Assembly: GCF_001458435.1 (NCBI RefSeq)
Contig: NZ_CYSF01000001.1
Location: forward strand, 62,001 to 126,000
Length of the DNA stretch: 64,000 bases
Source of the DNA: Thalassovita mediterranea
GTDB lineage: Bacteria > Pseudomonadota > Alphaproteobacteria > Rhodobacterales > Rhodobacteraceae
Direction: 5' to 3'
In this document: positions 4,334 through 20,061 of the stretch, piece after piece
Position numbering within the stretch: the stretch's first letter is position 1
Layout of the letters: each line of letters starts with the position of its first letter
Translations under genes and position numbers: made by a program
Notes under the pieces: model-generated
What the model was told of the DNA's origin: nothing
The model's input: only the letters and a program-made list of their open reading frames with translations
The model's database searches: none

Positions 4334-4876
4334 TCAGCGCAGGGACATGACCAGGTCAATCAACGAACCCATTGGTGCGTTGTCTGTCTGCGGTAGCTCT
4401 TTCAGTCCGACAGAGGCGGCCAGAATCAGCTGCGCCCAATCAGGGTTGGAGATCCCGCTTTCCTGCAATAGGCCATTCAATAGATCCAGTCGCAGGCCGT
4501 CGACCTTGGTCAGCCGTTCTGCAACTGTTGGCGCATCTTTGGCCCACGCACGAATGAGGCGCTCGGGGTTGGTATCTGCGGTGACTGTGCTGCTGTAGTC
4601 GGTAATGCCTGCAGCTAGCCTACGTAGTCGGGCGCCTGCGTTCGGCTCTTCCTCAATGACTGTGGTGAGGGCGGTCAGCGCCTCAGCTTCCCACACATCG
4701 AGCATGGCGGACTGAAAGGCGGCGACATCAGCGAAATGCCAATAAAAAGATCCCTTGGAGGTGCCCAGCCGTCGCGCCAGCGGTTCTGCCTTCAACGCAC
4801 TGGGACCGCCTTCTGTGAGGGCGGTAAAACCGGCTTTTAACCAGTCAGCTTTGGAAAGGCGTGTTTTGCTGGTCAT
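4334..4876 (-). CDS. TetR family transcriptional regulator
   Basis: 180 residues. The N-terminal helix-turn-helix is clear: KADWLKAGFTALTEGGPSAL, then EPLARRLGTSKGSFYWHF at about 28-46, a TetR pattern. The C-terminal ligand domain is diverged, so the effector is unknown. It lies 88 bases downstream of the reductive dehalogenase-like gene on the same strand, but a GC hairpin at 4924-4948 separates them. A dyad (ATGCT-N7-AGCAT, 4883-4899) lies seven bases ahead of its start and a second (TTTTGCA-N2-TGCAGAA) is nearby, both candidate self-operators. Whether it controls the dehalogenase-like gene is open. Confidence 0.85.
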   Translation of the reverse strand: MTSKTRLSKADWLKAGFTALTEGGPSALKAEPLARRLGTSKGSFYWHFADVAAFQSAMLDVWEAEALTALTTVIEEEPNAGARLRRLAAGITDYSSTVTADTNPERLIRAWAKDAPTVAERLTKVDGLRLDLLNGLLQESGISNPDWAQLILAASVGLKELPQTDNAPMGSLIDLVMSLR

Positions 4877-4964: not shown

Positions 4965-7900
4965 TCACAGATCAATTTCTACCTCGCCGCCCGCCTCAGC
5001 TGCGCGGGATTGGCACAGGATAATGCTGTTTTCACGTTGGGCGTTGGACAGGACATAGTCGCGATGCTCTACCGCGCCTGAAACCAAGCCACATTTGCAC
5101 ACGCCGCAGATGCCGTCGGCGCATTTCACATCCACATGCACGCCGTTTTCAATCAACACATCGCTGGCGGTTTTGTATGCAGGTACGTCCAGACGACGGC
5201 CATCGCGCAGTTTTAGGGTGAAGGGGTGGTTTTCATAATCTGGTTGATCAGGAACGTTGAAATATTCCAGATGGCGGGCATCCTCAGGAAAACCCTGACG
5301 CTCTGCCGCTTCCATCACGCCCGCCATGTAGCGATCCGGCCCGCAGGTGTAGACATGCCATCCATCGCTGTAACCGGACAAGATCGCGTCCAGATCAGCG
5401 CGGGTGCCTTCAGCGGAGAAGTGATAATGCACTTTGTCCGCCCATGGCATTGCGGTCAGATCCGCCAGATAGCCCGCACTGTCGCGGCTGGAGCAGGAAT
5501 AATGTAGCGCAAAATCACGCCCCAAAGCGTGCAGGCGATGGGCAAAGGCAATCATCGGCGTGATGCCGATCCCGCCGCCCATGAGGAAAGTCTTTGTCGC
5601 TTCCTCCACCAGTGGGAAGTGATTGATGGGTTTGGAGATGAAGACCTTGCGCCCTTCTTCAAAGATCCGGTGCAACAGGGCAGAGCCACCGCGCCCCTCA
5701 TCCTCTCGCAATACACCGATCTGATAGCTGGCAGTGATCGACGGATCGCCGGACATGGAATACTGACGCAAAAACTCTGGCGCGACCAAGACATCCAGAT
5801 GGGCACCAGCGGTCCAATCCGGCAGCGGCGCGCCGTCTAGGGTGGTGAACTCATACTTGGTCACATCAGCGGTCATCGCCTCCACCTTGCTGACCGCGAC
5901 GCGGATCACGGGTGCGTCGGCAGTGTCCACCTGATAACGGTGCAGCATGGTGAAATCGCCTGCCGCCAATCGCTTACGGTATTCCTCTGCCGGTATCATC
6001 GCCTGATACGCGGCAATCCCGGCCTCGCGATCCATGGGAAAGGGGTAGGGCCACGGCGGCGGGGCCAGATGGGCGGGGTAAACCGCCAGCGTCTGATCCT
6101 CATAGCGCAGGTCCAGATCGGTTTGCAGGCCACGGCGGTTCAGGGGGTGTTTGCTAGGATAATAGGCGCCATCCTCAGACAGCTCCAAATCCCACCACCA
6201 CTTCTTCACATCGTTGAGGCCGCCATTGCCAAGGCGATCATCCAGCTTCGCCAATACCGGCGCGGCAGCGGGGATGTTGGAGGCGGCCCAGCGGAACGGC
6301 GCCTCTGAAAACAGCCCCTCTAGGTTCCACGGGCAGGTTTTCATGCAGCGCCCACACATCGCCCCGCCCGGTGTGGTGATCCGGTAGGTTGCACATTTCT
6401 GGCTGTCTGATTTCCAGATCTCATAGCCGTTGAACATCAGCTTGGGTCCAGCGGTGATTGCGCCGGATGGACATTCGCGGGCGCATTTGTTGCAGCTTTC
6501 GCAGAACTTTTGCAGGCCGAAATCAATCGGCTTGTCATGCGCCATCGGCATGTCGGTGGTCACCACGCCGGATTTCAGGCGCGGGCCTAGGTAGGGGTTC
6601 AGGATCACCTCGCCAATGCGGCTGACCTCCCCCAAGCCGCTCAGCAGCAATAGTGGCGGCTGCAGCACCTCACCATCCATCACCGTGTGGGCCTTGGCCG
6701 AATAGCCAAGGTTGCGGATCTGCTGTGCGATCACCCCACCCAAGAGCGAAAAGCGCAGGTAGGCCCGCATCGACTGCGCCACCGCGATCCAGTCATCGCC
6801 CGATGATCCCTCCATCGTTTCACGGCCCTGATCAATGATCATCGAAATGGCGTTGCCGTGGCGCGGGGTGATCTCTTCGCCCGCAGCATCATGGCTGTAC
6901 CACGCAAAATCGGGACAGCGGCTCAGCCCCACCGCATCGGCGCCCAGGAAGTAGCTGGTCGCCTTGATGTTGAGCGCATTGCGTTCGGCATCTGTGGGGC
7001 GTGAGCCGTCTGGATTCGGATCGCCGTTCTGGATGACAACAAAGGCACCAAGGGCACGGCGTTGCGCAAAACTGGGCGCGGATTTGCGCACGTAATGGCC
7101 ATTTTTCGTGGCCTCCTGCACATGCTTGCCCATGTCACCAAAGAGGGCGCGGGCAAACATATCGGTACGTTTGGGCACGCGGGCCACATTGGGTTCGTCA
7201 ATATAGGTGGTCGGATCCTCCACCCGTTTCAGCCGTTCAAACGGATGGCCCCCATCGGCAAAGCGCCGTTTGGCAAAAGGATCACGGTTCAGCGCCGATT
7301 TTTCACTGCCCATCCCCAGCATCCAAGCGGGACCGGACGTGGCGCGCCATGGCTGTTGCACCATCGGGGCCAGTGGTTGATCGGTCGCGACTGGCAATGT
7401 GCAGGTCACGGCGGCCAGACCAAAGCGCCCACCCAGCCATGGCGCGATCAGTTGGCCATTTTCGACCGTGGCCAGACCGGCGGCGACGGCCATTTGGTTC
7501 AGATCCACATCCGATGATCCCCCCGAATGCGCCTTGGCCCCCCATCCCAAAAGCCGGATGTAGTTTGCCAGAACCGCCGCCGTTTCATTGGCGCGCAGGC
7601 AGGCGCGTTGCGCTTGCGCGTCCTGTATCCAATCGGTGCCCGCCTCATCTCCATCAGGATCGCGGGGATATTCATATAGAAAGACCAGCGCAAATTCGTG
7701 ATCGCTGATGGATGAGGGCGGGGCGGCCATCGCCTCTTTCAGCTCTGCCATGATCATGTCGATGCCGGAGGCCAGCGTTTTGGTCTGGCGTGTCTGCAGC
7801 GCCTCGGCCAGCCGGGCGATGTCGGGGTTCAGCACAGGCGCAGGCAGGCGCGCGCTGTCTGGCAGGCGGCAGATACCAACCATGCTGGCGTCGTTGAAAT

Positions 7901-8177
7901 AACCAAAAGCCTTCAGATGGTTGGCACGTTCCTGTGGGTCGCTGGGAATGTCGGATTGAAGCCGGTTCACCCCACCATCGCGGATCGCATCCAGCATCGC
8001 CTGGTATTCACCCATTGCGTTGACGATGCTTTCCGGCGCATCGGTGCGGCGAAAGCTGACCGGCTGCCATGTGGGTACCTTCGACAGGTCGACTTTTTCC
8101 AACCGCTTCAGTCGTTCCAAAGGGTAGGGACCAAGGTGAACTGGACGATCCTTGCCAGAGAAAAAGCGCAGTCCCAT
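4965..8177 (-). CDS. Self-sufficient (catabolic) reductive dehalogenase-like protein, RdhA fused to flavin reductase and 2Fe-2S ferredoxin
   Basis: 1070 residues. Residues 1-280 and 340-555 are two copies of a cobalamin-binding nitroreductase-like fold; the repeat is visible as LLGWGAKAH (209-217) and NLGYSAKAH (489-497). Then come two 4Fe-4S motifs, C559-x2-C562-x2-C565-x3-C569P and C595...C608-x2-C611-x3-C615P, as in RdhA and QueG. From about 750 an FNR-type reductase shows RQYS (804-807), GGGIGITPM (867-875) and YTCGPDRYM, and residues 980-1070 form a plant-type 2Fe-2S domain (C1019, C1024, C1027, C1055). This order matches cytoplasmic NAD(P)H-dependent dehalogenases such as BhbA and NpRdhA. 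Tyr427 and Lys495 are candidates for the catalytic pair. There is no Tat signal and no RdhB. AAGGAGG precedes the ATG. It is divergent from preT. The substrate is unknown and dehalogenation is inferred. Confidence 0.87.
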   Translation of the reverse strand: MGLRFFSGKDRPVHLGPYPLERLKRLEKVDLSKVPTWQPVSFRRTDAPESIVNAMGEYQAMLDAIRDGGVNRLQSDIPSDPQERANHLKAFGYFNDASMVGICRLPDSARLPAPVLNPDIARLAEALQTRQTKTLASGIDMIMAELKEAMAAPPSSISDHEFALVFLYEYPRDPDGDEAGTDWIQDAQAQRACLRANETAAVLANYIRLLGWGAKAHSGGSSDVDLNQMAVAAGLATVENGQLIAPWLGGRFGLAAVTCTLPVATDQPLAPMVQQPWRATSGPAWMLGMGSEKSALNRDPFAKRRFADGGHPFERLKRVEDPTTYIDEPNVARVPKRTDMFARALFGDMGKHVQEATKNGHYVRKSAPSFAQRRALGAFVVIQNGDPNPDGSRPTDAERNALNIKATSYFLGADAVGLSRCPDFAWYSHDAAGEEITPRHGNAISMIIDQGRETMEGSSGDDWIAVAQSMRAYLRFSLLGGVIAQQIRNLGYSAKAHTVMDGEVLQPPLLLLSGLGEVSRIGEVILNPYLGPRLKSGVVTTDMPMAHDKPIDFGLQKFCESCNKCARECPSGAITAGPKLMFNGYEIWKSDSQKCATYRITTPGGAMCGRCMKTCPWNLEGLFSEAPFRWAASNIPAAAPVLAKLDDRLGNGGLNDVKKWWWDLELSEDGAYYPSKHPLNRRGLQTDLDLRYEDQTLAVYPAHLAPPPWPYPFPMDREAGIAAYQAMIPAEEYRKRLAAGDFTMLHRYQVDTADAPVIRVAVSKVEAMTADVTKYEFTTLDGAPLPDWTAGAHLDVLVAPEFLRQYSMSGDPSITASYQIGVLREDEGRGGSALLHRIFEEGRKVFISKPINHFPLVEEATKTFLMGGGIGITPMIAFAHRLHALGRDFALHYSCSSRDSAGYLADLTAMPWADKVHYHFSAEGTRADLDAILSGYSDGWHVYTCGPDRYMAGVMEAAERQGFPEDARHLEYFNVPDQPDYENHPFTLKLRDGRRLDVPAYKTASDVLIENGVHVDVKCADGICGVCKCGLVSGAVEHRDYVLSNAQRENSIILCQSRAAEAGGEVEIDL

Positions 8178-8394
8178 CGTGGGCCTCCTTCGGGGTCAAA
8201 TGGCGTGATCCGGCCCCAAATGGTGTGCCGCTACGCGACAGTTGTTGTGGGGGCGGAATGGCTGTCTGGGACAGGCAGTAGCGACTGCGGCAAGGTGATA
8301 AAATCCTCATCAATGAGGAGGTCTTGGCCCGTGTTTGAGATGGCTGAAATAATCTAATGTTCTGATATTATTTGTTTTTCCAAAATGCCTAAAT

Positions 8395-8410
8395 TTTACC
8401 ATTTGGAAAA
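8395..8410. promoter_or_regulatory. RutR-like operator between the dehalogenase-like gene and preT
   Basis: TTTACCA-TT-TGGAAAA keeps the ACCA-N2-TGG core and the outer TT/AA of the RutR consensus TTGACCA-N2-TGGTCAA known from E. coli. It closely resembles the perfect palindrome at 13023 in the same locus. It lies in the 297-base divergent region, about 65 bases ahead of preT and 218 ahead of the dehalogenase-like gene. Binding is inferred. Confidence 0.55.
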
Positions 8411-8474
8411 AAACAAAATGAGTGCAAGCTGAGTCGCAAAAATAGAGACAAAACCAAGCTCAGTGGAGGTACAC

Positions 8475-9797
8475 ATGACTTCGAACGCGCTGACGCCAGG
8501 CATTGTTGCAGGGCGGCTTCCTTCGGGGGATCTGGCGGATAATTTTTCCGATCTTCATCCCCCTCTTGACGATCACGAGGCGCTGGTCGCTGCGGATCGT
8601 TGCTATTTTTGCCACGACGCGCCGTGCATGACGGCCTGTCCAACCGATATCGACATTCCCCTGTTTATTCGCCAGATCGCTACTGGCACGCCCGAAGCGG
8701 CGGCGAAAACGATTTTGGAACAGAACATTCTGGGCGGCATGTGTGCCCGTGTTTGTCCGACCGAAACCCTGTGTGAACAGGTCTGCGTGCGTGAAACCGC
8801 CGAAGGCAAACCGGTGGAGATCGGTAACCTGCAACGCTACGCCACCGATACGCTGATGGCAGCGGGCGTGCATCCCTTCACCCGCGCGGAGCCCACTGGC
8901 AAACACATCGCTGTTGTTGGCGCTGGCCCGGCGGGTCTGTCCTGCGCTCACCGTCTGGCAATGAAGGGACATGACGTCACCATTTACGACGCCCGCGCCA
9001 AAGCAGGTGGTCTGAACGAGTTTGGCATCGCCGCTTACAAATCCGTCGATGGGTTCGCGGAAAAAGAGGTCGCTTGGCTGATGCAGATCGGTGGTATCAC
9101 CGTGCAGCATGGCAAAGGGCTGGGCACTGGCCTGTCGCTGGATAAGCTCAAGGCGGATCATGACGCTGTTTTCCTCGGCATCGGTCTGGCAGGCGTGAAC
9201 GCATTGGGCGTTGATGGTGAGGATAAGGATGGCGTTCTGGACGCGGTCGACTTCATCGCTGAACTGCGTCAGGCGGACGATCTGGCAGAGGTCGCCATTG
9301 GCCGCGACGTTGTGGTGATCGGCGGCGGCATGACCGCTGTGGATGCAGCCGTGCAGGCCAAACTGTTGGGCGCGCTGAACGTCAGTCTGGTCTATCGCCG
9401 TGGTAAGGACCGGATGAACGCATCCGCGTTTGAACAAGAGTTGGCGGCGACCAAAGGCGTGCGCATCATCACCAATGCCTCACCCAAAGCGGTGATCGGC
9501 AATGGTGCGGTGCAAGAGATCGAATTCGACTACACCGACGACAGCCTGCAGCCCACCGGCGAAACCGTGCGCCTTGCTGCCGATCAGGTGTTCAAGGCAA
9601 TCGGTCAGCAGTTGGGCGGCGATGATCTGCCTGCGGTCGAACGTGGCAAAATCACCGTCACCGATGGCGGGCGCACCAGCCTCAAAGGTGTCTGGGCCGG
9701 GGGCGATTGTGCCTCGGGCGGGGATGACCTGACCGTGACCGCCGTGGCCGAGGGCCGCGATGCAGCCGAAGACATTCACGCCGCCCTGTCGGCGTAA
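8475..9797 (+). CDS. preT: NAD-dependent dihydropyrimidine dehydrogenase, subunit PreT
   Basis: Flavin and iron-sulfur electron-input subunit that passes electrons between NAD(P)H and PreA for reduction of uracil and thymine to the dihydro forms. 440 residues from the ATG at 8475, which has GGAGG five bases ahead; the in-frame GTG at 8463 overlaps that site and is rejected. The N-terminal 4Fe-4S ligand cysteines are C43/C46/C51/C55 and C90/C94/C100/C104. A first dinucleotide fold reads VVGAGPAGLS at about 147-156 (FAD) and a second VVVIGGGMTAVDAA near 282 (NAD). It resembles the small subunit of glutamate synthase, but linkage to preA 20 bases downstream settles the role. Confidence 0.93.
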   Translation: MTSNALTPGIVAGRLPSGDLADNFSDLHPPLDDHEALVAADRCYFCHDAPCMTACPTDIDIPLFIRQIATGTPEAAAKTILEQNILGGMCARVCPTETLCEQVCVRETAEGKPVEIGNLQRYATDTLMAAGVHPFTRAEPTGKHIAVVGAGPAGLSCAHRLAMKGHDVTIYDARAKAGGLNEFGIAAYKSVDGFAEKEVAWLMQIGGITVQHGKGLGTGLSLDKLKADHDAVFLGIGLAGVNALGVDGEDKDGVLDAVDFIAELRQADDLAEVAIGRDVVVIGGGMTAVDAAVQAKLLGALNVSLVYRRGKDRMNASAFEQELAATKGVRIITNASPKAVIGNGAVQEIEFDYTDDSLQPTGETVRLAADQVFKAIGQQLGGDDLPAVERGKITVTDGGRTSLKGVWAGGDCASGGDDLTVTAVAEGRDAAEDIHAALSA

Positions 9798-9817: not shown

Positions 9818-11125
9818 ATGGCCGATCTCACCAGTGAATTCATCGGGATCAAATCCCCCAATCCGTTCTGGCTGGCCTCTGCGCCGCCGACTGACAAGGA
9901 ATACAACGTTCGCCGCGCCTTTGAGGCTGGCTGGGGCGGTGTGGTCTGGAAAACCCTTGGCGCCGAAGGGCCGCCTGTCGTCAACGTAAACGGTCCGCGC
10001 TACGGCGCGATCTGGGGCGCGGATCGTCGCCTGCTGGGCCTCAACAACATCGAACTGATCACCGACCGCCCGCTGGAAACCAACCTGCGAGAGATCAAGT
10101 CGGTGAAACGCGACTACCCGGATCGCGCGGTCATCATCTCTCTCATGGTGCCCTGTGATGAGGAAAGCTGGAAAGACATCCTGCACCGCATCGAAGACAC
10201 CGGCGCTGACGGGGTAGAGCTGAACTTCGGCTGTCCGCACGGGATGGCGGAACGCGGCATGGGATCTGCCGTGGGGCAGGTGCCGGAATATATCGAGATG
10301 GTGACATCTTGGGTAAAACAGTATTCCAAAATGCCCTGCATCGTGAAGTTGACGCCAAACATCACCGACGTGCGCAAACCCGCCGAGGCCGCGCTGCGCG
10401 GTGGGGCGGACGCGGTTAGCCTGATCAACACCATTAACTCCATCACCTCGGTCGATCTGGATGATTTCGCGCCCGAACCCACCATTGACGGCAAGGGCAC
10501 CCACGGCGGCTATTGCGGCCCAGCGGTGAAACCCATTGCGCTGAACATGGTGGCCGAAATCGCCCGCAGCCCTGAAACCGCGAACCTGCCGATCTCTGGC
10601 ATCGGGGGTGTGACCACTTGGCGCGACGCGGCAGAGTTCATGGCGCTGGGCGCAGGCAACGTGCAAGTCTGTACGGCGGCGATGACCTACGGGTTCAAAG
10701 TGGTTGAGGAAATGATCTCGGGTCTTAGCGACTACATGGATCGCAAGGGCATGACCTCCACCAGCGAATTGGTGGGCCGTGCGGTGCCGAATGTGACCGA
10801 CTGGCAGTATTTGAACCTGAACTACGTGACCAAGGCCAAAATCGATCAGGACGCCTGCATCAAATGCGGCCGCTGCTACGCTGCCTGCGAGGATACCAGC
10901 CACCAGGCGATCGACATGTCAGAGGATCGCACATTCACCGTCAAAGACGACGAATGCGTGGCCTGTAACCTCTGTGTTAACGTCTGTCCGATCGAAAACT
11001 GTATCACCATGGAACAGGTCGCCGCCGGTCAATTGGACGAGCGTACCGGTGAAACAGTGCCTGAGGAATACGGCAACTGGACCCAGCATCCCAACAACCC
11101 CTCGAATGTGACAGCGGCTGAGTGA
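9818..11125 (+). CDS. preA: NAD-dependent dihydropyrimidine dehydrogenase, subunit PreA
   Basis: Catalytic FMN subunit that reduces the 5,6 double bond of uracil and thymine, the first step of reductive pyrimidine catabolism. 435 residues. An N-terminal TIM barrel of the dihydroorotate dehydrogenase type covers about 1-320, with the motifs ELNFGCPHGM and VKLTPNITD and the phosphate-binding ISGIGGVTTW. A C-terminal 2x[4Fe-4S] ferredoxin domain has C347/C350/C353/C357 and C380/C383/C386/C390. AAGGAG precedes the ATG. A strong terminator follows the stop, so preTA is a two-gene operon. The product would pass to the dihydropyrimidinase encoded at 14519. Confidence 0.96.
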   Translation: MADLTSEFIGIKSPNPFWLASAPPTDKEYNVRRAFEAGWGGVVWKTLGAEGPPVVNVNGPRYGAIWGADRRLLGLNNIELITDRPLETNLREIKSVKRDYPDRAVIISLMVPCDEESWKDILHRIEDTGADGVELNFGCPHGMAERGMGSAVGQVPEYIEMVTSWVKQYSKMPCIVKLTPNITDVRKPAEAALRGGADAVSLINTINSITSVDLDDFAPEPTIDGKGTHGGYCGPAVKPIALNMVAEIARSPETANLPISGIGGVTTWRDAAEFMALGAGNVQVCTAAMTYGFKVVEEMISGLSDYMDRKGMTSTSELVGRAVPNVTDWQYLNLNYVTKAKIDQDACIKCGRCYAACEDTSHQAIDMSEDRTFTVKDDECVACNLCVNVCPIENCITMEQVAAGQLDERTGETVPEEYGNWTQHPNNPSNVTAAE

Positions 11126-11196: not shown

Positions 11197-12237
11197 TTAG
11201 AATTCTGTAATCACCGTCGCGCCGACGGATTGGAATTTGTCCATCGCCATGAGGGCATTGGGCGCCATCGCCAAGGAAATCCGGTCACCAACCAGCCGTT
11301 CGGGGGCCAATTTGCCGGACTGGATCATTGCTAGAATCGCGTCATATCTATGCGCCTGCATACCATGAGAACCGAGGATTTCCAGCTCTTGCCCGATCAC
11401 CTTGGCCATGGGCACTTGTGGTGACGTATGCTCGCCCAACATCAGACCGACTTGCACGTGTTTGCCGCGCGGACGTAGGTTAAGGATAGAATTGTAGCAT
11501 GTCGTCGGGTGTCCCAGTGCATCAAGTGACACATGCGCACCGCCACGGGTCAGTTCCATTACGGCCTCCGGCACATCGGCAACCGTTGCCCCGTTCACAC
11601 AGGCCACCGCGCCGAGGTCACGCGCCAGCGCCAGTTTTGCCTCATCGATATCCACGGCAATGACGTTCGCGCCCAGTGCATTGGCAATCATGATCGCCGA
11701 TAGTCCCACGCCGCCACAGCCATGGACCGCGACCCACTGACCTGCGCGTGTTTGCCCCTGATCGACCACCGCGCGGAAGGACGTTGCGAACCGACAGCCT
11801 AGGCTGGCTGCCGTTGCGAATTCCATCTCTTCTGGCAGTGCAACTAGATTGAGGTCTGCCTGATGGATGGCCACATACTCTGCGAAAGACCCCCAATGGG
11901 TGAACCCAGGCTGTTCTTGATTGTGGCAAACCTGCTGATGACCTGCGTGACATTCCGAACAACTGCCGCAGCCTGCGATAAAGGGCACGGTGACGCGGTC
12001 CCCAACCCGCCAATTGCGCACATCATTCCCAACGGCTGCCACTGTGCCAGCCAGTTCGTGACCGGGGACATGAGGCAGGTCGATGTCGCTGTCATGCCCC
12101 ATCCAGCCGTGCCAGTCAGACCTACACACGCCAGTTGCCTCTACCTTGATCACGACACCATGCGATTCGGGTGTTGGATCGGGCAGGGTGGTTAGTTTGG
12201 GCGCTTCAGCGAACTTTTCAAACAGCACGGCTTTCAT
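11197..12237 (-). CDS. Zinc-dependent alcohol dehydrogenase family protein
   Basis: 346 residues, medium-chain dehydrogenase. Catalytic zinc ligands are Cys38, His60 and Glu61 ([16 protein letters not shown]), and the structural zinc cysteines are C90, C93, C96 and C104. A Rossmann glycine motif GCGGVGLSA sits near residue 174. It is the downstream partner of the rutR-type gene, 20 bases apart on the same strand, so it is probably in the pyrimidine regulon. An attractive but unproven role is reduction of a semialdehyde from beta-alanine or beta-aminoisobutyrate, comparable to the malonic semialdehyde reductase step of the Rut pathway. Substrate cannot be read from sequence. Confidence 0.88.
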
Positions 12238-12257: not shown

Positions 12258-12908
12258 TCAGGGCGTCAGCAATTTTCGGAACAACGTGTCCAGATAGGCA
12301 TCAGCACCCTCGAATGGGTCTTCGTCACTAGGGCTAAGGACATCAATCTGCACCTCGAAATCCGCATAATGCTGCGTGGTCGCCCAGATTGAATAGAGCA
12401 GGTGACGCGGGTCCACGGCAGCCAGCTTACCCTCGTCCATCCATTGACGCAGCAGGGCGGTTTTTTCATCGACCAAAGGTTTCAGCCCGCTTTCCAGATG
12501 CGGTTTCATCCGTGGGGCGCCTTGCAGGATCTCATTCGCAAACAGGCGGGATTCGCGGGGAAACTCGCGGCTCATCTGCACTTTGCGATGGATGTAGCCC
12601 ATCACCTCTTCCAGCGGGTCGCCGTTTGGATCCAACTCTTGCAGCGGGTTCAGCCATGTCTCCATCAGACGGTTCAGCAACATCACATGGATCGCTTCCT
12701 TGCCGTCGAAATAATAAAGCAGGTTCGGCTTTGACAGCCCCGCCGCTTTGGCGATCTGATCCAGTGTTGCGCCGCGAAATCCGTGGGCGGAAAACACGTC
12801 CAGCGCTGCCTCCATAATGCGGGTGCGATTGCGCTGTTGAATGCGGCTCAGCTTCTTTTCGCCGCTCTGTTCTGCGGGGGCGGCAATGGGTGTTTCGCTC
12901 TGCGTCAT
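12258..12908 (-). CDS. rutR: RutR-type TetR family regulator of pyrimidine catabolism
   Basis: 216 residues. The HTH reads [27 protein letters not shown] and is followed by NLLYYF and, later, [42 protein letters not shown], a pattern remembered from E. coli RutR, whose ligands are uracil and thymine. The ATG at 12908 is preferred (GAGG seven bases ahead) over a TTG 27 bases upstream. It is divergent from the amidohydrolase-dihydropyrimidinase genes, whose promoter holds a perfect RutR-like palindrome at 13023. It is co-directional with the alcohol dehydrogenase. Uracil sensing is inferred from similarity and context. Confidence 0.85.
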
Positions 12909-12990
12909 CGGGACCTCGGATTGCTGTGCCAACAAAATGATCTTGCGCTGATTAGTTGGTCATCTTGGCACAGTCGATGGAAGAGTTTTC

Positions 12991-13038
12991 TTGACAGGTG
13001 CCCTTACGTTGGCAATCGTCAATTTACCAAGTGGTAAA
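12991..13038 (+). promoter_or_regulatory. Promoter with overlapping RutR palindrome for the amidohydrolase gene
   Basis: TTGACA (12991-12996) is a consensus -35 box; 17 bases later AATCGT (13014-13019) is a poor -10. The perfect 7-2-7 palindrome TTTACCA-AG-TGGTAAA (13023-13038) covers the expected start point, a classic repressor position. Its ACCA-N2-TGGT core equals the RutR consensus core. Function is inferred. Confidence 0.65.
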
Positions 13039-16075: not shown

Positions 16076-16873
16076 ATGGAGCACGGGGACGTGACCAATA
16101 ATACCGTGATCAGCGCCAAAGATCTGTCGCTGACCTTTCAGACCAATGATGGTCCCGTGCATGCCTTGAAGGATGTGAACCTCGACATTCAGAAGGGGGA
16201 CTTTGTCAGCTTCATCGGCCCGTCGGGCTGCGGCAAAACCACCTTTCTGCGCTGTATGGCGGATCTGGAACATCCAACAGCTGGCAGCATCACAGTAAAC
16301 GGCGTCAGCGCCGCCGAGGCACGCAAGGCCCGCGCCTATGGCTATGTGTTCCAGCACGCAGGCCTTTACCCGTGGCGCACGATCGGCGGCAACATCTCCC
16401 TCCCGCTGGAGATTATGGGCTACGACAAGGCCGACCAACAGGACCGGATCAAACGGGTGCTGGAGCTGGTTGAGCTGGAAGGGTTTGAGAAGAAGTTTCC
16501 ATGGCAGCTGTCCGGTGGGATGCAGCAGCGGGCGTCAATTGCCCGCGCGCTGGCCTTTGATGCGGACATTCTGTTGATGGATGAACCTTTCGGCGCGCTG
16601 GATGAGATTGTGCGCGACCACCTGAATGAACAATTGCTGCACCTCTGGGCGCGGACCGAAAAGACGATTGGGTTTGTCACCCACTCGATCCCCGAAGCGG
16701 TTTACCTGTCGACCAGAATCGTGGTGATGAGCCCGCGGCCGGGCCGGATCACCGATGTGATCGAAAGCACTCTGCCCAAGGAACGTCCCTTGGACATTCG
16801 CGACACACCCGAGTTTTTGGACATCGCCCATCGCGTCCGCGAGGGCCTGCGCGCGGGGCATGCCTATGACTGA
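16076..16873 (+). CDS. ABC transporter ATP-binding protein (NitT/TauT/ThiZ type)
   Basis: 265-residue ATPase of an importer. Walker A GPSGCGKTT is near residues 43-51, the Q-loop region YVFQHAGLYPWRT follows, then the signature LSGGMQQR, Walker B ILLMDEPFGALD and the switch histidine in FVTHSIPEA. The subfamily (with FGALD and the proline-rich arms) includes taurine, nitrate, riboflavin and thiamine-precursor importers. First gene of an operon with a GNAT gene, two permeases and a binding protein; the GNAT start overlaps its end. The context beside pyrimidine catabolism suggests uptake of a pyrimidine or related ring compound. Confidence 0.92.
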   Translation: MEHGDVTNNTVISAKDLSLTFQTNDGPVHALKDVNLDIQKGDFVSFIGPSGCGKTTFLRCMADLEHPTAGSITVNGVSAAEARKARAYGYVFQHAGLYPWRTIGGNISLPLEIMGYDKADQQDRIKRVLELVELEGFEKKFPWQLSGGMQQRASIARALAFDADILLMDEPFGALDEIVRDHLNEQLLHLWARTEKTIGFVTHSIPEAVYLSTRIVVMSPRPGRITDVIESTLPKERPLDIRDTPEFLDIAHRVREGLRAGHAYD

Positions 16874-17309
16874 GGTGTTGATCAGACGCGCCACCAGCAG
16901 TGACGTGCCCGCCATGGCGGACATCGTCTGCAGCTGGGAGGCGGAAACGGAGTGGATGCCAACCCTCTACGGGGCGGAAAAGATCGCCGGTTTCATCCGC
17001 GACGCCCTGTCAGAGCGTGAGATCTGGGTTGCTGAAGAGCCCGCAACAAGGGCCGTGCAGGGATATCTGTCTTTTGATCCGGCGCAGGGGCGCATCGGCG
17101 GGCTGTACTGCGCGCGCCGTGGCAGCGGATTGGGCAAGGCGTTGATGGACAAAGTGAAAGAGGGGCGCAGCGCGCTGTGGCTGCACACCCACGCCCCGAA
17201 TCTGCGCGCCCAAGAGTTCTACCGCCGCGAAGGGTTTGTTGAGGTCAGCCGTCACACGCCAGAGCCGCCGGAGACCGTCGAAGAAATCAGGATGGAGTGG
17301 GCGTCATGA
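16860..17309 (+). CDS. GNAT family N-acetyltransferase
   Basis: 149 residues, probably acetyl-CoA dependent. The N-terminal TEVLIRRATSSDVPAMADIV and the acetyl-CoA loop region RRGSGLGKALMDKVKEG, then FYRREGFVEVSR near the C-terminus, are typical GNAT strands and helices. Two starts six bases apart are possible. It overlaps the ATPase gene by 14 bases upstream and the first permease gene by four bases downstream, so it is translated with the transporter. The substrate is unknown; it might modify the imported compound or an amine made in the pathway. Confidence 0.85.
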   Translation: MPMTEVLIRRATSSDVPAMADIVCSWEAETEWMPTLYGAEKIAGFIRDALSEREIWVAEEPATRAVQGYLSFDPAQGRIGGLYCARRGSGLGKALMDKVKEGRSALWLHTHAPNLRAQEFYRREGFVEVSRHTPEPPETVEEIRMEWAS

Positions 17310-18181
17310 GAAACCTCTTTCCCATCCTTACCGTCGTCGCGGCGATATTTGTGATCTGGTACGGGGCTGCGGTGGCGCTGAATGCGCCCTGGGCCAAGGA
17401 TCAGGCCAAACGCGCCGGTGTTGAACTGACGTTCTCAGAACTGGTTGCGGATACGTGGAGCCAGAAGAAACCGAAGCTGCCCGCGCCGCATCAGGTGACC
17501 GCAGAGATCTGGAAAACCACTGGCGAAATGGTCGCCAAAGGCCGCGCCTTTTCGAAACGCAGCCTGATCTATCACAGCTGGATCACTCTGTCGGCGACGA
17601 TGCTGGGGTTTGTCATGGGAACGGGCTTTGGCATCCTGCTCGCGATCGGGATTGTCTATAATCGGGTGATGGATATGTCGGTGATGCCGTGGGTCATTGC
17701 CAGTCAGACCATTCCCATTCTTGCCATCGCGCCGATGATTATTGTGGTTCTGAATGCAGTGGGCATTTCTGGGCTGCTGCCGAAGGCGATGATTTCGATG
17801 TATCTGTCTTTCTTCCCTGTGGTGGTGGGCATGGTGAAGGGGCTGCGTAGCCCCGATCAAATGCAGCTTGACCAAATGCGCACGTGGAATGCCACGGCGG
17901 GACAACAGTTCTGGCGCCTGCGTTTGCCGTCGTCGATGCCGTTCCTCTTTGCCTCGCTCAAGGTGGCGATGGCGGCGTCGCTTGTCGGGGCCATTGTGGG
18001 CGAATTGCCGACGGGTGCGGTGGCGGGCCTCGGCGCGCGTCTGCTGGCGGGCAGCTATTATGGCCAGACTATCCAGATCTGGAGTGCGCTGATTATGGCG
18101 GCGGCTTTGGCGGCCTGTCTGGTGGCGATGATCGGGATGATCCAGCGCATGACGCTGAAAAGAATGGGGATGGCGCAATGA
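17306..18181 (+). CDS. ABC transporter permease 1
   Basis: 291 residues from the ATG at 17306 that overlaps the GNAT stop (ATGA). An N-terminal membrane segment (LFPILTVVAAIFVIWYGAAVAL) is followed by a soluble stretch and then about five helices. The binding-protein-dependent permease EAA-like loop, around MVKGLRSPDQMQLDQMRTWNATAGQQFWRLRLPSSMPFLFASLK, identifies the family. It pairs with the second permease, starting four bases before the end of this one, to form a heterodimeric channel of the NitT/TauT type. Confidence 0.9.
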   Translation: MRNLFPILTVVAAIFVIWYGAAVALNAPWAKDQAKRAGVELTFSELVADTWSQKKPKLPAPHQVTAEIWKTTGEMVAKGRAFSKRSLIYHSWITLSATMLGFVMGTGFGILLAIGIVYNRVMDMSVMPWVIASQTIPILAIAPMIIVVLNAVGISGLLPKAMISMYLSFFPVVVGMVKGLRSPDQMQLDQMRTWNATAGQQFWRLRLPSSMPFLFASLKVAMAASLVGAIVGELPTGAVAGLGARLLAGSYYGQTIQIWSALIMAAALAACLVAMIGMIQRMTLKRMGMAQ

Positions 18182-19017
18182 TGTGGATTGCGATTGGTGT
18201 GATCAGCTGGCTTATCGGCTGGCGGGCAAATGTCTGGCTGGCGGCGCAGCCAACCAGCCGTTTCACGACGTTGATGGTGCCGGTGATCTTTGGCCTGACA
18301 TTGGTTATGATATGGGAGGCTGCGGTGCGCGGCTTCGAAATTTCGCCCGTTCTTTTGCCCGCGCCTTCGGTCATTGCGGTGACTTTTGTGCAGTCGCTGG
18401 ACATCCTGTGGCAGGATTTTGTGCAGACGGTCATCAAGGGCGCGCTGTCGGGCTATATCCTCGGCTGCGGCTCGGCCTTCTTGATTGCGATTGTAATCGA
18501 CCGCTTTCCGTTTCTGCAACGTGGGCTGTTGCCGGTGGGCAACTTCGTCGCCGCGCTGCCGATTGTGGGCATGGCGCCCATTTTGGTGATGTGGTTCGGC
18601 TTTGATTGGCAGTCGAAGGCGGCGGTTGTGGTTGTCATGGTCTTCTTCCCCATGTTGGTGAACACGGTGGAAGGGCTGCAAGCGACCGACAAGATGCAGC
18701 GCGATCTGATGCGGACCTATGCGTCCAGCTACATGCAGACACTGCTCAAACTGCGCCTGCCCGCCGCGATGCCGTTCATTTTCAACGGGCTGAAAATCAC
18801 CACCACGCTGGCGCTGATCGGTGCCATTGTGGCCGAATTTTTCGGATCTCCCATCAAGGGCATGGGGTTCCGGATTTCAACCAGTGTCGGGCAACTGGCA
18901 TTGGATCTGGTCTGGGCAGAGATTGTGGTCGCCGCAATCGTCGGCTCGGCCTTTTATGGCGGGGTCGCCAAGTTAGAGAAGGCGCTGACCTTCTGGCATC
19001 CCTCCCAACGTGGCTAA
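18178..19017 (+). CDS. ABC transporter permease 2
   Basis: 279 residues from the ATG at 18178, which overlaps the previous stop; longer in-frame starts lie inside permease 1 and are rejected. About six hydrophobic segments are present. The EAA-like coupling loop (LMRTYASSYMQTLLKLRLPAAMPFIFNGLK) sits near residue 185. The sequence ISPVLLPAPSVIAVTF and the closing KLEKALTFWHP are usual for NitT/TauT permeases. It forms the second half of the importer channel. The binding-protein gene follows after 55 bases. Confidence 0.9.
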   Translation: MMWIAIGVISWLIGWRANVWLAAQPTSRFTTLMVPVIFGLTLVMIWEAAVRGFEISPVLLPAPSVIAVTFVQSLDILWQDFVQTVIKGALSGYILGCGSAFLIAIVIDRFPFLQRGLLPVGNFVAALPIVGMAPILVMWFGFDWQSKAAVVVVMVFFPMLVNTVEGLQATDKMQRDLMRTYASSYMQTLLKLRLPAAMPFIFNGLKITTTLALIGAIVAEFFGSPIKGMGFRISTSVGQLALDLVWAEIVVAAIVGSAFYGGVAKLEKALTFWHPSQRG

Positions 19018-19072
19018 ATCAACAAAAAACCAAAGCCATAACCAACAAGGGAAACAACAAGGAGTGTATGAG

Positions 19073-20061
19073 ATGAAAACCATGATCAAATCCCTAAGCG
19101 TTGCAGCCATGGGTGTTTGGGCCGGTATGGCTCAGGCGGCTGACGATGTGACGCTGCAGCTGAAGTGGGTCACGCAGGCGCAGTTCGCGGGCTACTATGT
19201 GGCACAGGATAAAGGGTCTACGAAGAAGAAGGCCTGAACGTCACCATCAAACCCGGTGGCCCCGATATCGCACCCGCGCAGGTGATCGCCGGTGGCGGTG
19301 CTGACGTTGTGCTGGACTGGATGCCCTCTGCCCTCGCCAGCCGTGAAAAGGGTCTGCCGTTGGTCAACATCGCGCAGCCGTTCAAATCGTCCGGCATGAT
19401 GCTGACCTGCCGCAAGGATGCGGGTGTTTCCAGCCCCGAAGATTTTGCCGGCAAAACACTGGGCGTCTGGTTTTTCGGCAACGAATATCCCTTCCTCAGC
19501 TGGATGAACAAACTGGGCCTTGGCACCGATGGTGGTGATGCGGGTGTGACTGTGTTGAAACAGGGCTTCAACGTGGATCCGATCCTGCAGGGTCAGGCAG
19601 CTTGTGTGTCGACCATGACCTATAACGAATACTGGCAGATCATTGATGCGGGCCTGACGCCGGATGATCTGGTGGTCTTCAAGTATGAGGATCAGGGCGT
19701 CGCCACGCTGGAAGATGGCATGTATGTGCTGGAAGAGAACCTGAAAGATCCCGCGTTTGAGGATAAGATGGTTCGCTTTGTCCGCGCCTCGATGAAAGGA
19801 TGGAAATGGGCGGAAGAAAACGCCGAAGAGGCGGCGTTGATCGTGCTGGATAACGATGCTTCCGGCGCCCAGACCGAAGAGCACCAGATCCGCATGATGG
19901 GTGAGGTGGCCAAGCTGACCGCAGGCAGCAACGGCGCACTGGATCCGGCGGACTATGAACGCACCGTGGCCAGTCTGATGTCGGGTGGGTCTGATCCGGT
20001 CATCACAGCGGCACCGACGGGCGCGTGGACCCACGCGATCACTGATAAGGCGCTGAAATAA
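19073..20061 (+). pseudogene. ABC transporter substrate-binding protein (NMT1/ThiY-like), frameshifted
   Basis: The reading frame opens at 19073 (AAGGAG ahead) with a signal peptide ending MAQAADD and mature sequence VTLQLKWVTQAQFAGYYVAQDKG, typical of NMT1/ThiY-type binding proteins. It then leaves frame at about 19217 and stops at 19237. The next frame (from about 19218 to 20061) continues the protein without loss: YEEEGLNVTIKPGGPDIAPA and on to the end. Adding one base in GGGTCTACG restores GFYEEEG. So one base is missing. It is either a real mutation that disables the importer or a sequencing error. The intact product would be about 329 residues and capture the solute in the periplasm. 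Confidence 0.85.

Follow-up and report, generated by a model that had tools for sequence, protein, structure and literature searches.

The window analysed here is a 64,000-nucleotide stretch of the Thalassovita mediterranea genome (contig NZ_CYSF01000001.1, positions 62,001 to 126,000), in which an uninterrupted open reading frame on the minus strand (4965..8177, ATG at 8177) encodes a 1070-residue reductive dehalogenase, hereafter RdhA, divergent from the pyrimidine genes preT and preA (preTA). The protein scores 212.5 bits against the NCBIfam reductive dehalogenase model TIGR02486 (cut-off 160.35), and the NpRdhA chains 4ras and 6zxu align with its residues 2-108 and 159-738 at E-values of 7e-163 to 9e-163 (547 bits by phmmer). 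The cobalamin-type module is duplicated: when residues 1-300 were compared with residues 301-650 by hhalign, residues 9-271 aligned with 302-553 (probability 99.7, E 6.6e-26), the N-terminal and C-terminal parts share 26% identity by BLASTP (E 1e-16), and both halves align to 4ras. The first module copy of NpRdhA is described as binding no cobalamin (PMC10463259) and, by analogy, the same would hold for the first copy in RdhA. Two 4Fe-4S motifs come next, and the C-terminal part (about residues 758-1062) resembles phthalate dioxygenase reductase (2pia) and the reductases of self-sufficient P450 enzymes, with a plant-type 2Fe-2S domain at its end. A twin-arginine signal was not seen, the first 42 residues of the translation containing no Arg-Arg when judged by eye, and the genome itself (G000) encodes CobN (1626 bits, cut-off 822). 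The first-pass annotation had proposed this domain set, the orientation divergent to preTA and a self-sufficient, BhbA-like catabolic enzyme lacking a signal peptide, all of which is upheld by the matches above. Judged by its sequence, the gene product is a full-length catabolic RdhA of the BhbA/JtRdhA type, fused to a phthalate-dioxygenase-type reductase (Table 1).

The active site can be read from the alignment to 4ras, which is ungapped with an offset of 47 from residue 463 onward. The published NpRdhA numbering is reproduced, with A419, S422, M423 and Y426 falling on V466, S469, M470 and Y473, K488 on K535 and R552 on R599. In NpRdhA, S422, K488 and R552 are described as lying at hydrogen-bond distance from the phenol oxygen, with Y426 proposed to donate the proton (PMC7565698). 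Conservation was assessed over 132 aligned rows, 131 of them different (the window gene is present twice), with 47-100% identity to the window protein; F341, S469, M470, Y473, K535 and R599 are invariant in 132/132, BhbA among them, as are all twelve cluster cysteines (eight for 4Fe-4S, four for 2Fe-2S). This mapping points to Tyr473 and Lys535 as the catalytic pair, acting together with Arg599 and Ser469, and overturns an earlier choice of Tyr427 and Lys495. Counted along the printed alignment, the latter two occupy the positions of NpRdhA Tyr379 and Arg448 rather than those of Tyr426 and Lys488; Tyr427 is invariant in all 132 rows and Lys495 is variable (K in 114, R in 15, T in 3), and the pair was rejected.

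RdhA shares its whole domain order with BhbA, encoded on plasmid pBHB of Comamonas sp. 7D-2 (WP_015585978; 50.3% identity over the full length), and every catalytic, pocket and cluster residue tested is the same in both. The settings differ: bhbA lies on a conjugative IncP plasmid, adjoins protocatechuate 4,5-dioxygenase and transport genes and, according to PMC10463259, serves bromoxynil degradation, whereas the window gene lies on a 263-kb contig, adjoining preTA and genes whose translations read as housekeeping functions. JtRdhA of Jhaorihella thermophila is likewise an NADPH-driven RdhA-PDOR fusion that keeps the key residues Y426, K488 and R552, a likeness drawn from its published description (PMC10463259) rather than from a computed sequence identity; with NADPH it debrominates and deiodinates phenols, while chlorinated phenols merely inhibit it. 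NpRdhA of Nitratireductor pacificus (4ras, 6zxu, 6zy0) has the duplicated module, clusters and catalytic residues of RdhA, and Ala419 in place of Val466. Because NpRdhA is described as naturally lacking a fused reductase (PMC10463259), it does not have the full domain order of RdhA, and an initial assignment to the order of both BhbA and NpRdhA stands for BhbA and falls for NpRdhA. In the account given by the same source, the catabolic RdhA enzymes characterised to date are all specific for ortho-halogenated phenols.

Putative bhbA homologues are reported as widespread in the Roseobacter clade (PMC13101508), and one enzyme of a related marine bacterium, Ros_A3X954 of Roseobacter sp. MED193, is a 2,6-dibromophenol debrominase (PMC13101508) for which we compute a mass of about 50 kDa from the published kcat over specific activity. 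The MED193 orthologue of RdhA (L144/L177; 74% identity) is fused and about 1070 residues long, and because of this difference in size, the accession itself not having been compared, Ros_A3X954 is probably not that orthologue. A second, shorter MED193 RdhA (L178; a 537-residue open reading frame with 32% identity over residues 389-620) is by size the likelier Ros_A3X954. A literature search with Thalassovita and dehalogenase found no published work on a Thalassovita RdhA. This kind of enzyme is already known from BhbA, JtRdhA and the Roseobacter-clade homologues, and the present member is new.

We consider RdhA to be an NAD(P)H-driven dehalogenase of ortho-halogenated phenols, with a probability of roughly 0.85, and bromo- and iodophenols to be its likeliest substrates. 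The domains and residues are observed directly; the electron path, cofactors and substrate class are carried over from characterised relatives. In such an enzyme, NAD(P)H would reduce the flavin mononucleotide (FMN) of the C-terminal reductase, and electrons would then reach base-off cob(II)alamin, bound in the second module, by way of the 2Fe-2S cluster and the pair of 4Fe-4S clusters. Lys535, Arg599 and Ser469 would hold the oxygen of a bound ortho-halogenated phenol, the halogen would meet the cobalt, and the carbon-halogen bond would be reductively cleaved with Tyr473 supplying a proton.

Table 1. Positions of the rdhA gene, its parts and nearby features in the window.
Feature	Position	Strand	Basis
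Self-sufficient catabolic reductive dehalogenase, a fusion of RdhA with a phthalate-dioxygenase-type reductase, 1070 residues	4965..8177	-	Open reading frame and domain matches
First module copy (residues 9-271), vestigial by comparison with NpRdhA	7365..8153	-	hhalign
Cobalamin-binding core module, residues 302-553	6519..7274	-	TIGR02486, NpRdhA alignment, hhalign
Codon of Tyr473 (NpRdhA Tyr426, putative proton donor)	6759..6761	-	4ras alignment, invariant in 132/132
Codon of Lys535 (NpRdhA Lys488)	6573..6575	-	Alignment; column altered in the K488Q chain 6zy0
Two 4Fe-4S motifs, Cys559/562/565/569 and Cys595/608/611/615	6333..6503	-	Motifs (residues 559-615), 132-row alignment
Codon of Arg599 (NpRdhA Arg552, contact to phenol oxygen)	6381..6383	-	Alignment, 132-row conservation
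FMN/NAD(P) reductase part, residues 759-975	5253..5903	-	Structure matches 2pia, 6laa, 6kbh
Plant-type 2Fe-2S domain, residues 986-1059, Cys1019/1024/1027/1055	5001..5222	-	Domain match 993-1059, 132-row alignment
TetR-type regulator	4334..4876	-	Weak model matches only; retained where RdhA is absent
RutR-like palindromic site TTTACCAnnTGGTAAA, 1 mismatch, beside preT	8395..8410	.	Motif search
preT	8463..9797	+	Listed start GTG 8463; ATG at 8475 after GGAGG
preA	9818..11125	+	NF006183 PreA, 734 bits, cut-off 335
RutR-like TetR regulator	12258..12935	-	TIGR03613, 214 bits, below cut-off 368
Perfect copy of TTTACCAnnTGGTAAA between RutR-like gene and amidase gene	13023..13038	.	Motif search

The position beside preTA had led the first-pass annotation to propose a pyrimidine substrate, and within the genus the linkage is consistent: full-length RdhA occurs in 7/9 Thalassovita genomes, and in all seven the gene adjoins preA and is divergent from preTA. 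The wider distribution and synteny, which were observed directly, speak against that substrate. Among 295 sampled genomes of the family (matches at E <= 1e-100), RdhA is matched in 115 and preA in 239, and at none of 110 RdhA loci outside the genus does preTA lie within 8 kb. These loci are the 115 without the partial matches in G041, G103 and G167 and two genus members; their flanks, at most 8 kb either way, total 1.60 Mb (on average 14.5 of 16 kb covered, some loci stopping at contig ends). The nearest preTA outside Thalassovita is in G277, with preT 12.6 kb and preA 14.0 kb from the dehalogenase gene. The linkage is confined to one genus, close to the outcome that the first-pass annotation had named as damaging to its proposal (linkage in this genome only), though several genomes share it. 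The seven preTA-linked proteins group in a single clade (support 99-100), the linkage counting as one change on the tree, and the sister of this clade is unstable (G204 in one tree, support 97; G191 in another, support 40). The two genus members without RdhA, G004 and G005, keep the order recO-tetR-preT-preA with a tetR-preT gap of 288 and 280 bp, an empty site that is compatible either with a single arrival and then loss or with a later arrival; the G005 assembly is 83% complete, with its tetR-preT site intact. Because the TetR-type gene of Table 1 is kept in genomes lacking RdhA, we assign it to the chromosomal site and not to the dehalogenase. On this gene order preTA looks like a chance neighbour, an accident of one genus: a single insertion or rearrangement would have placed the gene between tetR and preT, and two members would have lost it or never received it. 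The preTA-linked clade has six genus-specific fixed positions (the duplicate window row excluded), mostly conservative and none at known pocket residues, so that, judged at those residues, no altered substrate pocket was found.

A regulatory connection to pyrimidines was suggested by the palindromic site TTTACCAnnTGGTAAA in the common RdhA-preT gap, which in the window is 218 bp away from the start of RdhA and lies closer to it in siblings with shorter gaps. We take this sequence to resemble the RutR consensus, and its two occurrences in the window are candidate pyrimidine operators in Thalassovita. The preT-side site is, however, aligned in 9/9 genus members, including the two that lack RdhA, and the motif shows no enrichment in front of 124 RdhA genes unlinked to preTA, where matches are near those of shuffled sequence (at best 3 mismatches in 1 gene, 4 in 5 and 5 in 23). 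Because it is kept with or without RdhA and is not enriched at unlinked RdhA genes, the site would by its history belong to preT, although it could touch RdhA transcription in those siblings whose gap is short. A search of the same 124 upstream regions for the RutR-like motif, palindromes and 8-mers gave no nameable common operator. The RdhA-preT gap also contains the palindrome CCTCATcaATGAGG (8305-8318), a similar repeat (CCTCA-N4-TGAGG) being found in the closest genomes only (the window, G006, G002 and G007). A MarR-type gene lies 15-153 bp from RdhA in 16/110 survey loci (e.g. L085, L059 and L057) and is a likelier regulator of its own than the RutR-like protein.

Across the 295 genomes, without correction for phylogeny, RdhA co-occurs with hmgA and pobA and not with preA. 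preA is matched in 96/115 genomes with RdhA and in 143/180 others (p 0.45), the 19 RdhA genomes lacking it including some incomplete assemblies; hmgA, by comparison, is matched in 100/115 against 98/180 (p 3e-9) and pobA in 90/115 against 108/180 (p 0.0014). Leaving out the three partial RdhA matches gives p values of 0.22, 1e-8 and 0.0013, respectively. At three of the 110 loci (G204, G234 and G081, each a separate change on the tree) pobA lies 90-365 bp from RdhA, where chance would place about 0.3 in the flanks searched if genomes measure 4 Mb (P 0.004; a post hoc test, the cases having been seen beforehand), and at one further locus (G301) hmgA lies 631 bp away. On the Nitratireductor OM-1 plasmid the gene is near pobA and ring-cleavage genes, while on other named plasmids it accompanies MarR (Jannaschia), MarR and TRAP genes (Aminobacter) or TRAP genes (Yoonia); in Ruegeria TM1040 an FAD-binding oxidoreductase lies beside it.

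No Pfam family recurs among 126 next-gene proteins, one on each side (the commonest, MarR among them, at 6/126). These are part of 194 neighbour references, second upstream genes being left out, and derive from our own codon-scored gene calls, which are provisional (L073 and L074 by tblastn). Since no family dominates its neighbours, the gene seems to have moved often. In the 105-locus set a divergent LysR gene lies upstream of RdhA in 22 loci, and in 22 RdhA is followed by the genes of a molybdenum hydroxylase (subunits for FAD, 2Fe-2S and Mo, plus a MoaD-like protein), mostly in Ruegeria by the examples seen (L098, L100, L103 and L108). Both N-heterocycle hydroxylases and aromatic CoA reductases belong to the molybdenum hydroxylase family, and the cluster could to that extent be read in favour of a pyrimidine substrate. 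Further copies of RdhA were also encountered. A second fused protein, 54% identical, is encoded in the sibling genome G001 on a contig other than that of preTA (L070, G001:C65; also L012), and a 71% identical RdhA of Rhodobacteraceae type is found on a contig titled uncultured Flavobacteriales (L172), which may reflect a binning error in that assembly. In G276 (L088) and G106 (L258) RdhA is matched in two separate pieces, and G200:C12 holds a second partial copy with two stops; by their sequences, these split or stop-bearing copies indicate decay in some lineages.

Several observations weigh against ortho-halophenol dehalogenation as set out above. Proximity to pobA or hmgA holds at just 4/110 loci, most loci showing none of the tested aromatic genes as a partner, and the co-occurrence statistics ignore phylogeny and genome size. 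An AlphaFold2 model (24 sequences) has a mean predicted local distance difference test score of 59.6, with residues 413-472, 499-536 and 548-634 below 50, and is too poor for geometry. Finally, hmgA, the PF00775 intradiol dioxygenase and PobA were not matched, at the thresholds used, in the window's own genome or in its nearest sibling, G006, so that no sink for the product was seen there, in a search limited to those pathways and with the meta-cleavage, gentisate, phenylacetyl-CoA and phenol hydroxylase routes outside it. These two are smaller genomes of the genus; the other seven have hmgA in 7/7 and PF00775 in six (G001 also lacks the latter). The missing hmgA and PF00775 are the single point that would allow a changed role, and could be taken to favour a pyrimidine substrate in this lineage. 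RdhA is nevertheless under strong purifying selection between the two genomes, a direct observation, with a ratio of nonsynonymous to synonymous substitution rates of 0.038 (0.030 for preT).

This selection, in genomes lacking hmgA and PF00775, is what speaks for the best-surviving alternative, which overlaps with the reading of RdhA as an ortho-halophenol dehalogenase in assuming the same chemistry and assigns it another role: detoxifying natural bromo- and iodophenols, or using the phenol by another route, rather than the usual carbon supply. We regard it as possible but hold it tentatively, with hmgA kept in 7/9 genus genomes and the narrow range of the sink search counting on the other side; for the product formed in the two small genomes, detoxification or another route are the first candidates. 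It is very improbable that RdhA performs some reductive cleavage of a phenolic ring other than dehalogenation, a reading that draws on the non-dehalogenating epoxyqueuosine reductases within the wider class III cobalamin family and on a wide gene spread that alone names no substrate, given that the epoxyqueuosine reductase (QueG) model TIGR00276 reaches just 24 bits (cut-off 200) and that the phenol-binding and proton-donor residues match NpRdhA. Least probable, by a little, is that RdhA dehalogenates 5-halouracils and feeds PreTA, or that in the small-genome lineage it was recruited to the preTA regulon to act on these or related N-heterocycles resembling ortho-halophenols: the halogen of a 5-halouracil, next to the C4 oxygen, could mimic an ortho-halophenol in the pocket, but the one-genus linkage, the empty sites, the null association with preA and the unchanged phenol-binding residues led us to reject pyrimidine dehalogenation as the best explanation, the RutR-like site is kept without RdhA, dihydropyrimidine dehydrogenase can itself free bromide or iodide from 5-halouracils, and a keyword search found no literature linking bromouracil with reductive dehalogenation.

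The neighbourhood holds other pyrimidine genes besides preTA: a hydantoinase/carbamoylase-family amidase (TIGR01879, 378.7 bits, cut-off 204) and a dihydropyrimidinase (TIGR02033, 584 bits, cut-off 393) are encoded nearby. A Zn-dependent alcohol dehydrogenase gene (11197-12237) lies between preA and the RutR-like gene, an extra, unclustered gene found there only in the window and in G006. After the dihydropyrimidinase gene come the genes of an ATP-binding cassette (ABC) transporter that may take up pyrimidines (16076-20061; the ATPase assigned by model, the permeases and binding protein by inspection), and among them lies a GNAT-like open reading frame (16866-17309).

The case shows that a neighbourhood found in one genus can point to the wrong substrate. 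RdhA matches in 115/295 genomes, in many chromosomal places and few of them by aromatic-acid genes, fit a broad part played by ordinary aerobic marine bacteria in bromophenol and iodophenol turnover, and the genomes that carry RdhA but not the usual genes of ring cleavage are where catabolism could be told directly from detoxification.

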